64,000 bases of DNA, from assembly GCA_902593945.1 (NCBI GenBank), contig CACJKA010000003.1, positions 53,864-117,863 on the forward strand. The letters are read 5' to 3'. The position numbers and the translations under genes are program-made. The notes under the pieces are model-generated. The model was not told where the DNA came from. It saw nothing but the letters and a program-made list of their open reading frames with translations, and did not search any database. Origin of the DNA: an uncultured Candidatus Poseidoniales archaeon (GTDB lineage: Archaea; Thermoplasmatota; Poseidoniia; Poseidoniales; Thalassarchaeaceae). Below are positions 22,788 through 27,013 of this stretch, piece after piece (positions within the stretch are counted from its first letter, which is position 1; each line of letters starts with the position of its first letter).

Positions 22788-23957
22788 ATGACTGATGAAG
22801 ATGTATTGTTTTCGATTACTGATAAGAACCTCGATTCAGGGCTAAGAGGTGTTCCAGTTGGAACTTGTCAGACATCTTTTGTTGATCCTTATGAAGGAGT
22901 ACACTATGTGGGGTATCCAGTTGAAGATTTAGTTAATATGGAAGAAGAAGATGTAATCTTTCTACTTTTTAATAAGCGTTTACCAACAGAAGAAGAATCA
23001 GAAGAGTTTCGTGCGGAATTAACACAGAGAGGAGAAAATATTCCTACAGGCGCACTTAGAGTTTTGGAATCTCTAACTCCTGGAAGTGGCCATCCTATGG
23101 AATGGCTTTCTATTGGCATCATGGCTCTAGGGACTGCAGAAAAAACTGGAGATACAAGGGCTGATGCGATGAATCTCATTGCCAGGATGCCTGAACTAAT
23201 GGCTAGAATTTTCCGTTTAAGAGGCGGAGAGAAAGAGAAATTAAAACCACGAAGCCCTGGCCTAGGTTTAGTCGAAAATTTCGTTCATATGATGGGTTTT
23301 GAAGATGAACAGGCACGTGATATCGAAAGAGTACTTCGTTTCTTTTTCATTCTTCACATGGATCATGGAGGGGGTAATCTTTCAACATTCTCAGGTAAAG
23401 CAGTAGCTTCCGGTTGGGCATCCATTTATTCTTCTATTTCTAGTGCAATGAACGCTCTTTCTGGGCCTCTTCATGGACAAGCCAATCAAGCATGTTTAGA
23501 ATTCGTCAAAAGAATTGGAACATCTGATCATAAGGAAATTGAAAATTTTGTCCGTACAGAATTATCTAATCGCAGAAAAATTTATGGTTTTGGGCACGGA
23601 GTTTTGAGAGCTGAAGACCCCCGTGCTCGCTTGTTGTTTGAATTAGGTGATGAAATATGCCCCGACCACGAATATTTCAAAATCGCAAGAGCATTGAGGG
23701 AAGTAATTCCTCCTATTCTAAGTGAGATTCCAAAAATAAGTAATCCATATCCCAATGTAGATATTGCAAGTGGAAGTTTACTTCATTCAGTTGGTTTCCG
23801 AATGCCTGAATATTATACTACATTTTTCGGTTGGGCAAGAGTTGCAGGAATTAGTGCTCAGATACTTGATGAGAGGAATGCTAGGGATGGCCGAGGAACT
23901 CCTATTTACCGACCTAAATATATCCCTAAGAATCAACCATTAAGAAGAATTGAATAA
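22788..23957 (+). CDS. gltA: Citrate synthase
   Basis: SFVDPYEGVHYVGYPVEDL, MDHGGGNLSTFSGKAVASG, ALSGPLHGQANQACLEF, GFGHGVLRAEDPRARLLFE. Confidence 0.93.
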   Translation: MTDEDVLFSITDKNLDSGLRGVPVGTCQTSFVDPYEGVHYVGYPVEDLVNMEEEDVIFLLFNKRLPTEEESEEFRAELTQRGENIPTGALRVLESLTPGSGHPMEWLSIGIMALGTAEKTGDTRADAMNLIARMPELMARIFRLRGGEKEKLKPRSPGLGLVENFVHMMGFEDEQARDIERVLRFFFILHMDHGGGNLSTFSGKAVASGWASIYSSISSAMNALSGPLHGQANQACLEFVKRIGTSDHKEIENFVRTELSNRRKIYGFGHGVLRAEDPRARLLFELGDEICPDHEYFKIARALREVIPPILSEIPKISNPYPNVDIASGSLLHSVGFRMPEYYTTFFGWARVAGISAQILDERNARDGRGTPIYRPKYIPKNQPLRRIE

Positions 23958-23958
23958 A

Positions 23959-25098
23959 TCATGAAGATCCATTTCTATGTGATTTACCAGTACCCCTATG
24001 CCCGATTATTCTTGGAGCTTCCCAAGGTAAACTTGATGAAGAAGTTTCTTTAATTAATGAATCAATTTCTCTTTCCCATGACCATCTTTTCTTCCAATTA
24101 GAGATGAAATCAAACCTTTCATTATCGGAAAGTTCATGCCAAGGGGTGACATCTTTCTTCATTTCATTAACTTTTGAAACATGTTGTTCGATTGGAGTAT
24201 CATCTAATTCTTTTCGTTGTTCCTTAGTTAGTGGTTGCGTAGCAGGTTTTGTCCATCTTGCTTGACCTGACTCCAAAGTTACTGAGGTTGGAGCAAGATC
24301 ATCAGTAAGTCCCGTTAAACCAGCATCTAGTAGCATTCTTTCAGAATTCGATTTCGATGGCCAAACATAAACTGGGTATCCTTTCCTACATTTTGTTAAA
24401 CGTTCTAATTTTTTCCCTTCTAGACCCACCGTTCTTCCTAAACTTAGGTTGCTTTCAAACCCTCTAAGATATTGTAGAGAACAAGGTAGCATTGGAGAGT
24501 TTTCTTTCCTCTGCTTTTCCATCAATCGAGGCAGAGAATTTAGAATAAATGAAGGGGTAGCAACAATTCTCTGTGATGTCCAATTCCCCCATGGGCGTAT
24601 ATGTGGCCTTAATCTACTAAATTTCAAATTAGTTTTCACTTTTTTAGATGCGGAAATAATCTTTGGCTCAAATGAATAAATTACAGTACTACTTTCGGAG
24701 AAATCAATTGGTTCTAAGATTTCATTTAATTCTTCAATCATTTTCGCCATATGTTTTTCCCTTTCTTTACCATTAAACCAACCTCCAGCTTTGCCACTAC
24801 TTGGGTGAGGGGATTTAAATTCAAAACATGTGAATGCTCCTTCTTCAGTCCATCTTCTAATGAAATCTTTTTTGTTTAATAAATCCTCTATTGGCTCTAC
24901 ATAATCTGGCAATTCATCTAATGTCAAACATTCAGGATAATCACCCAACTCGGTTTTAGAGTCATGATGAAGGACAAGTCTATTGTCTTCAGATAATCTC
25001 AAATCTAATTCAACACCATCACATTCATTCATTCCGTAAACTAATGCTTCAACCGTATTTTCTCTTGGACGAATCCATTGACCACTCTCTTCATCCAT
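23959..25098 (-). CDS. Glycerophosphodiester phosphodiesterase-like protein with permuted motif order
   Basis: N-terminus: RPRENTVEALVYGMNECDGVELDLRLSEDNRLVLHHDS, then FTCFEFKSPH and VYVWPSKSNSERMLLDAGLTGLTDD; the canonical N-terminal motif APRIIGHRGTGKSHRNGSS is instead the C-terminus. Confidence 0.85.
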   Translation of the reverse strand: MDEESGQWIRPRENTVEALVYGMNECDGVELDLRLSEDNRLVLHHDSKTELGDYPECLTLDELPDYVEPIEDLLNKKDFIRRWTEEGAFTCFEFKSPHPSSGKAGGWFNGKEREKHMAKMIEELNEILEPIDFSESSTVIYSFEPKIISASKKVKTNLKFSRLRPHIRPWGNWTSQRIVATPSFILNSLPRLMEKQRKENSPMLPCSLQYLRGFESNLSLGRTVGLEGKKLERLTKCRKGYPVYVWPSKSNSERMLLDAGLTGLTDDLAPTSVTLESGQARWTKPATQPLTKEQRKELDDTPIEQHVSKVNEMKKDVTPWHELSDNERFDFISNWKKRWSWEREIDSLIKETSSSSLPWEAPRIIGHRGTGKSHRNGSS

Positions 25099-25195: not shown

Positions 25196-27013
25196 ATGAG
25201 CATGTCAGATACAATAGAACTTGACCGAGAATCAAATCCAATAGAAGTTAGAGGTTACGCGTTTTACGATTGGGCTAAATCTGCTTTTGAAACCTCAGTG
25301 ACTGTTGCAGTATTGCCTGCATGGTATGCTTATCTATTCCTGAAGGCTAACGGATTAACAACTACTATCGGTTCTATAGAGATGCAAGGAGATGCTGTTT
25401 GGTCATTTGCAGTAGCAATAGGTACCTTATTTATTGCAATAATTAGCCCTTCCTTGGGTGTAATTGCAGATAGAAGAAGAATCAAGATGTGGTGGTTAAG
25501 AATACTTACATATGTCGGTGCTGGTTCAACTTTCCTTCTAGCATTCGCTCCTCTTTTACCAATTGAAACTCAGTGGTTATGGCTAATGGTATTCTTTATG
25601 CTGGCCAATGTAGGTCTCAATGGAGCAGGTGTGTTTTACAATGCTCTCCTTCCTCATATGGGTAAAGATGATGAGATGGATAGAATATCCAATCTAGCAT
25701 TTGCATACGGTTATCTCGGTGGAGGAATCTTACTTCTCGTTCATCTTGTTATGGTAATGTCATTAACTGGAGATTGGGTTATTCCCTTCGTAATGGCGTC
25801 ATCAGGTATTTGGTGGTATGGTTTCGCTTTATTGACTTTCAAATGGGTTCCTGAACCCCCTATTGAGAATGAGATGGAATCTTTAGATTTCGTTTCATCA
25901 GCAAAATTAGCCATTTCCGAAATTAGAAAAACTCTCAGTGAAATTGAGAAATTTAGGACACTATTCATTTACATGCTAGCATATTTCTTCTTCATCGATG
26001 GAATAAATAGTGTGACTGCTCTTGGAGGCGTATTTGGATCAACTGTACTTGGAATAACTACTGTTGACCTAATTGTAACAATTCTTGCAATTCAATTTGT
26101 TGCTTATCCTTCGGCATTAATGTTCACCAGGCTTGCAAAAAAATTAGGCACTAAATCTGCATTAAATATTTCACTAGTCGGATGGGTTGTGCTTTGTTTC
26201 GCTGCTCTTTCTTTTGCCCCCCTAGAGTACTCTCAACATAGTGATTACCAAGTTCAGCTGGATGAAGATGCAGAAGCAGGAGTATGGCATTATACACCCA
26301 ATGCAAATCTCCTTGATTTCCCTATAGCGCAGGTTGAAAATGGAGAAGAACAAGAGTGGGCGTTCACCAGTCTTCTTTCTGCAGGAATTGTTGAAATTGA
26401 TGAGGACTATTCCGATTCAGAAATTTACAAATGGGCTGGATTCGATGATGACAATGAACCTATTGCTATAAGTTTAGGTGTTCAGACAAGTGAAAATATA
26501 AATGAATTAATAAATTCATTTGAGGATACTAGATTTTCTGTAAGTGTTGCTTATTCAGATGGTAGCGAATCAACCAAGGTAGGGGTTGATCATCCAACTA
26601 GTCTAGGTGATGGTGTGATTGACGTCATTCCAAGTACAGTTCGTGACAAAGTTTGGCAACCTCTTGGCCTTACAGTTGGTCTACAATTCCTAATCCTTGG
26701 TTGTGCAATGGGGACATTGCTTGGGGGCTCTCAAGGTCTAGCAAGAAGTATGTTTGGTCAAATGGTTCCAGAAACCAGAAGTGCAGAGTTCTTCGGATTC
26801 TTCGGATTCTTCGGTAAAGTTGCAGCATTTATTGGACCATTATTATATGGTTTAATGACAGTAATGTTCGATAGTAGAGTTGGAATCTTATCCATTGCTA
26901 TGCTTATTCTGATTGGTGCTGTAATGATGAGAATGGTTGATCTTGATCAAGGACGTATGGACGCACAAGCAGAAGATGCTAAGAATAGAGGCATTCATTT
27001 CGGAGAAGATTGA
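25196..27013 (+). CDS. UMF1 / Atg22-like MFS transporter with soluble insertion
   Basis: EVRGYAFYDWAKSAFETSVTVAVLPAWYAYLF, FYNALLPHMGKDDEMDRISNLAFAYGYLGGG, QGLARSMFGQMVPETRSAEFFGFFGFFGKVAAFIGPLLYG. Confidence 0.88.
   Translation: MSMSDTIELDRESNPIEVRGYAFYDWAKSAFETSVTVAVLPAWYAYLFLKANGLTTTIGSIEMQGDAVWSFAVAIGTLFIAIISPSLGVIADRRRIKMWWLRILTYVGAGSTFLLAFAPLLPIETQWLWLMVFFMLANVGLNGAGVFYNALLPHMGKDDEMDRISNLAFAYGYLGGGILLLVHLVMVMSLTGDWVIPFVMASSGIWWYGFALLTFKWVPEPPIENEMESLDFVSSAKLAISEIRKTLSEIEKFRTLFIYMLAYFFFIDGINSVTALGGVFGSTVLGITTVDLIVTILAIQFVAYPSALMFTRLAKKLGTKSALNISLVGWVVLCFAALSFAPLEYSQHSDYQVQLDEDAEAGVWHYTPNANLLDFPIAQVENGEEQEWAFTSLLSAGIVEIDEDYSDSEIYKWAGFDDDNEPIAISLGVQTSENINELINSFEDTRFSVSVAYSDGSESTKVGVDHPTSLGDGVIDVIPSTVRDKVWQPLGLTVGLQFLILGCAMGTLLGGSQGLARSMFGQMVPETRSAEFFGFFGFFGKVAAFIGPLLYGLMTVMFDSRVGILSIAMLILIGAVMMRMVDLDQGRMDAQAEDAKNRGIHFGED

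Follow-up and report, generated by a model that had tools for sequence, protein, structure and literature searches.

The window, i.e. the whole stretch of 64,000 nucleotides of an uncultured Candidatus Poseidoniales archaeon that we analysed, very probably encodes a natural circular permutation of the TIM barrel of glycerophosphodiester phosphodiesterases (GDPDs), an active metal-dependent enzyme in which both chain ends are located at the active-site loop. The chain would follow the order b2-b3-...-b8-linker-b1 in place of b1-b2-...-b8, with the HRG motif, which comes first in canonical GDPDs, at the end of the protein.

Order of the motifs in the gene

The gene starts with an ATG and stops with a TGA at 23959-23961; its 379-aa protein begins with MDEESGQWIRPRENTVEAL and ends with APRIIGHRGTGKSHRNGSS. 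In canonical GDPDs, ENT comes a few residues after HRG. Here we read, from the N-terminus onwards, ENT (residue 13), ELD (30), HHD (44), ExK (93), W (246), TD (265), then 100 residues, and finally HRG (367). This is the order claimed by the earlier note, which had placed HRG behind ENT...TD and a linker of about 100 aa; the His codon, a CAT for residue 367, is at 23998-24000 as it had reported. It had also claimed that no N-terminal HRG is hidden upstream of the start, and this holds: an in-frame TAG found 7 codons 5' of the ATG limits any upstream extension to 6 residues at most. The features are the following:

23959-25098, minus strand: probable circularly permuted GDPD, whole gene, 379 aa (open reading frame list; PF03009 at 35 bits; homologues in 183/194 genomes)
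25054-25062, minus strand: ENT motif, residues 13-15, adjoining the N-terminus (read in the sequence; N14 in 98/98)
25003-25011, minus strand: ELD motif (E30, D32), strand b2, expected metal ligands (E30 and D32 in 98/98; model strand 28-35)
24961-24969, minus strand: HHD motif; H45 is the putative counterpart of the catalytic His93 of LpgD (H45 in 98/98; role taken from PMC10404611)
24814-24822, minus strand: ExK motif (E93, K95), strand b3, expected third metal ligand and active-site Lys (98/98 each; model strand 89-94)
24358-24366, minus strand: VWP (W246), strand b7 (W in 97/98; model strand 243-248)
24301-24312, minus strand: GLTD (D266), strand b8 (D266 in 98/98; model strand 262-265)
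24028-24300, minus strand: predicted helical linker from b8 to the moved b1, residues 267-357 (helices 292-300, 303-316, 325-339 and 345-350)
23986-24027, minus strand: putative moved strand b1, PWEAPRIIGHRGTG, residues 358-371, with HRG at 23992-24000 (model strand 364-367; conservation in 98/98; rotation test)
22788-23957, plus strand: citrate synthase, convergent neighbour, context only (PF00285; near the gene in 78/79 loci)
25196-27013, plus strand: ATG22/UMF1-type major facilitator transporter, divergent neighbour, context only (PF11700; 61/79 loci)

In its native order, the 379-aa protein matches the Pfam GDPD family (PF03009) with 35 bits over profile positions 9 to 159. The curated cut-off of Pfam for this family, 23.6 bits, is exceeded by all three members tested, this protein included. 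Judged by homology, the protein is a GDPD, but a permuted variant of it.

The citrate synthase and GDPD genes are convergent, a single base separating their ends (together they occupy 22788-25098), and they stay paired in 78 of the 79 loci. As the citrate synthase and the ATG22-type transporter are on the opposite strand, the neighbourhood is a case of synteny rather than an operon.

Conservation of the order of the motifs

A whole-genome search found GDPD homologues in 183 of the 194 genomes of the order, in 21/21 genera and 2 families, with identities of 33-91% among the matches listed; the named homologue records belong to marine group II (Candidatus Poseidoniales, Thalassarchaeaceae, Poseidoniaceae). 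The earlier note had proposed to look for the same order of motifs in Poseidoniales, considering that relatives with an N-terminal HRG would speak for a local event. When the frames are read from stop to stop, HRG is solely C-terminal in 141 of 142 homologous loci; in none of the 142 is it found upstream of ELD, so that the linear, HRG-first order is absent from all the homologues read. These loci contain some repeats of the same genome, and yield 97 distinct sequences besides the window protein. Among 20 further loci, 19 have a C-terminal HRG and the twentieth ends with its contig just after IGH. The permuted gene is also present in a genome made of a single contig (G002). The sole homologue without the HRG tail (L080, on G005:C3) diverges from its relatives after EEQG, which possibly reflects an assembly junction or decay.

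The mean column identity in the family is 50%. However, many positions are identical in all 98 distinct sequences: N14, D27, G28, E30, D32, H45, E93, K95, F143, P165, D266, W320, W359, R363, H367, R368, G369 and G371. They include the metal ligands expected of a GDPD (E30 and D32 of ELD, E93 of ExK) and its two histidines (H45 of HHD and H367 of the C-terminal HRG). With H367, R368, G369, W359, R363 and G371 in 98/98, the conservation of the tail lies far beyond chance.

Relatives differ in the length of the linker, with 60 to 107 residues separating D266 from HRG; after HRG, 2 to 16 residues remain. In genus g15 (L079, L078), the permuted GDPD has its linker shortened to 60 residues. The linker gave some matches to Type II secretion protein I (E 0.5-0.7), which we judged to be due to chance.

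Moving the tail to the front

When the tail of the window protein is moved to its front, the Pfam score rises from 35.1 to 40.6 bits and the match now starts from profile position 1. The same rotation applied to two distant members brought the scores from 25.7 to 30.5 bits and from 51.0 to 52.5 bits, again with a match from profile position 1. Searching the PDB with the single sequence (phmmer), the E-value went from 0.00043 in the native order to 0.00037 in the rotated one. This gain is slight because the similarity of single sequences is weak, hence the need for a comparison of profiles.

We therefore aligned with hhalign the profile of 97 family members against that of 13 canonical Thermoplasmatota GDPDs. 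The score is 153.8 in the native order and 171.4 in the rotated order, where RIIGHRG is aligned to IISHRG. With 200 column-shuffled tails placed at the front, the mean score is 155.1 (sd 1.13) and the maximum 162.5, while four other linker segments moved to the front gave 153.4-154.3. Even the unrotated family profile aligns its end to the beginning of canonical proteins: columns 364-373 to residues 4-13 of L067 (from the sister order), columns 358-372 to residues 67-83 of L069, and columns 364-373 to residues 74-83 of L071. An alignment in swapped order to unpermuted GDPDs marks a circular permutation, and at the level of the profiles this is what we have here. At an Neff of 74, a mean-field analysis of coevolution linking the moved strand with b2 or b8 carried little information, even known neighbouring strands giving only a weak signal.

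Predicted structure

AlphaFold2, run on the family alignment, gave a model with a pLDDT of 92.8 and a pTM of 0.91. The strands of its barrel are 28-35, 89-94, 138-142, 160-162, 204-207, 243-248, 262-265 and 364-367; the last one is IIGH, and the barrel reaches eight strands only when it is counted. The fold is thus, as a prediction, a TIM barrel. For the relative with a linker of 60 residues, the pTM is 0.88 and the last strand (320-323, MIGH) is at a pLDDT of about 93, the region preceding it being at 56-71. From the models, we infer that the moved strand occupies the b1 slot, as DSSP assigns a bonded strand to it and as opening a parallel barrel at b1 frees the edges of b2 and b8 only. The assignment of this strand and the confidence of the models argue against an HRG lying far from the active site.

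The best PDB matches found by Foldseek for the model of the window protein are GDPDs (E about 1e-8), and nearly all its matches are GDPDs; the top matches of the short-linker model are again GDPDs. The target-normalised TM-scores reach 0.68, in an alignment which follows the order of the sequence and so leaves the moved strand aside. Taken with the conservation of the tail and the rotation test, the two AlphaFold models and these matches support the circular permutation which the earlier note had claimed.

Alternative explanations

The order of the motifs could be a local rearrangement, an assembly error or a pseudogene confined to the genome of the window, which is an incomplete bin (65% complete). 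We give this practically no credit: the same order recurs in many species, from 21 genera of 2 families, and also in the single-contig G002, and the active-site residues are invariant in the homologues. Very improbable, too, is a reading of the C-terminal GHRGxGK[ST] as a Walker A-like P-loop that binds nucleotides and has no relation to the HRG of GDPDs. The GHRGTGKS of the window does fit GxxxxGK[ST]; however, the lysine, invariant in Walker A motifs, is found at position 372 in 79/98 sequences and the full GxxxxGK[ST] in 55/98, whereas each residue of HRG is in 98/98. Moreover, no helix follows the motif, past whose HRG 2-16 residues remain, and the barrel would be left without its b1.

Two other explanations keep the permuted chain. 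Some permuted proteins show swapped termini, and the linker, long (about 100 residues) and helical, might be the hinge of a strand-swapped dimer, where b1 completes the barrel of the partner subunit. This arrangement seems improbable to us, since the prediction made for a monomer gives the strand confidently, even with a linker 40 residues shorter. Slightly less improbable, but still improbable, is a barrel which is permuted yet catalytically dead or repurposed for a binding or regulatory role. The unusual linker and the additional conserved residues W320, W359 and R363 could be understood in this way, but the entire catalytic set of GDPDs is invariant, and the gene is the sole PF03009 match in 27 of the 29 f2 genomes sampled. 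Hence an active, permuted GDPD is the explanation that we retain.

Distribution and origin

We examined the PF03009 complement of a sample of 60 genomes of the order (31 from family f1 and 29 from family f2). The permuted gene is the only match in 27 of the 29 f2 genomes, the other two having none. Many of the 31 f1 genomes also contain a short canonical GDPD-like protein (193-208 aa), absent from the f2 genomes sampled. One of these (L001, G000:C17:404-1003, minus strand, 199 aa, GHRLGASGTKLENT) has HRL for HRG and lacks the W..TD end; it adjoins a gene for a GpsA-like glycerol-3-phosphate dehydrogenase, named by eye. It shares with the permuted GDPD the PF03009 match and the f1 genomes, but it has the canonical order, with HRL at the N-terminus, and is much shorter; we saw no sign that it is the direct precursor.

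Outside the order, both in its sister order within the class and elsewhere in the phylum, matches to the family model are weak and confined to the N-terminal part of the model. The 13 canonical GDPDs (from the sister order, other Thermoplasmatota and G030) have HRG first. The one from G030 (L077, G030:C11, genus g9) is a protein of 335 aa whose N-terminus is hydrophobic; in that genome, no permuted gene was detected. As the sister order and the rest of the phylum carry HRG-first forms and match the family model weakly, the permuted form seems to date from one event at the root of the order: most likely, the permutation arose once, before the split of the two families. The most likely route would be the usual path to permutation, in which a gene is duplicated, fused and trimmed; none of the 142 loci is an intermediate carrying HRG at both ends. 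The contig scan listed 79 of 266 relatives, so that rare occurrences elsewhere may exist; viral contigs gave no relatives. We rejected as a bacterial member a locus (L148, JAOMAZ010000023.1) from a Deltaproteobacteria single-cell genome: over 6.5 kb it shares 92.4% identity with a locus of Poseidoniales (L149), and is likely a contamination or a mislabelling.

Comparison with known enzymes

The PF03009 GDPDs (TM1621 of T. maritima, 1o1z; 2pz0 of T. tengcongensis; GlpQ of B. subtilis, 5t9b) are the top Foldseek and profile matches of the permuted family, and share with it all the motifs, the catalytic residues and the predicted TIM barrel. The permuted family differs from them by its C-terminal b1 and HRG, by an additional linker of 60-107 residues, and by termini placed at the active-site loop. 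LpgD of S. aureus, a lysophosphatidylglycerol phospholipase D (8GHH), shares the active site with two His and a metal (PMC10404611) and serves as a mechanistic template; unlike the archaeal family, it has the canonical order of strands. Among the permuted members, 18 of 40 share with it a weak NCBIfam match. A natural circular permutation between TIM barrels, both catalytic, is known for PutA proline dehydrogenase and MTHFR (PMC3779223): there, strands 1-8 of PutA correspond to strands 8,1-7 of MTHFR, in a different superfamily, whereas in the permuted GDPD strand 1 would have moved to the end.

Proposed mechanism

The chain would be opened between HRG and ENT, within the b1-a1 loop, bringing its two free ends to the active-site loop. 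Through the helical linker, the strand IIGHRG at the C-terminus would return into the vacant b1 slot, so that H367, the equivalent of the canonical HRG His, may act with H45, the metal ligands E30, D32 and E93, and K95. Catalysis, metal, substrate and the distance of H367 to the metal site are all inferred here. In LpgD and GlpQ, the 2-hydroxyl is activated by the HRG His together with the metal; the HHD His first serves as a general acid and then as a base, the reaction passing through a cyclic phosphate (PMC10404611). By homology, H367 and H45 would fill these roles while E30, D32 and E93 hold the metal. The most likely reaction would be that of canonical GDPDs, a metal-dependent hydrolysis, in two steps, of glycerophosphodiesters or of lysophospholipid headgroups, proceeding via a cyclic phosphate and giving glycerol phosphate (or lysophosphatidate). 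The N-terminus of the window protein is polar and shows no signal peptide by eye, which suggests that the enzyme is cytosolic.

One may speculate, though we find it rather unlikely, that the permutation is functional and not neutral: as the catalytic H367 would sit on a free C-terminal strand next to the free N-terminus, the enzyme would be activated only after its full synthesis and the docking of its tail, and the opened b1-a1 loop would widen the active site for the lysolipids of Poseidoniales, whose membranes have been proposed to be of an unusual G3P-based or mixed type.

Discussion

Our literature search, which covered papers available without subscription, returned no relevant paper on a permuted GDPD. 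It appears that a widespread enzyme family has here undergone a natural permutation that is so far undescribed, with the chain cut in the active-site loop; this is apparently an old and working natural redesign, fixed across an abundant order of marine archaea. As homologues are numerous, linker lengths vary and canonical relatives exist in the sister order, the family lends itself well to tests of how an enzyme tolerates permutation. The Pfam and NCBI models cover only a part of the protein, so that such permutations are readily missed in annotation.

According to a published report (PMC7852524), Poseidoniales have no glycerol-1-phosphate dehydrogenase and yet can make G3P. A phosphodiesterase releasing G3P would fit with this, which we offer as a suggestion only. 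Often the only GDPD within the genomes of the order, the permuted enzyme bears on the recycling of glycerol phosphate in archaea.
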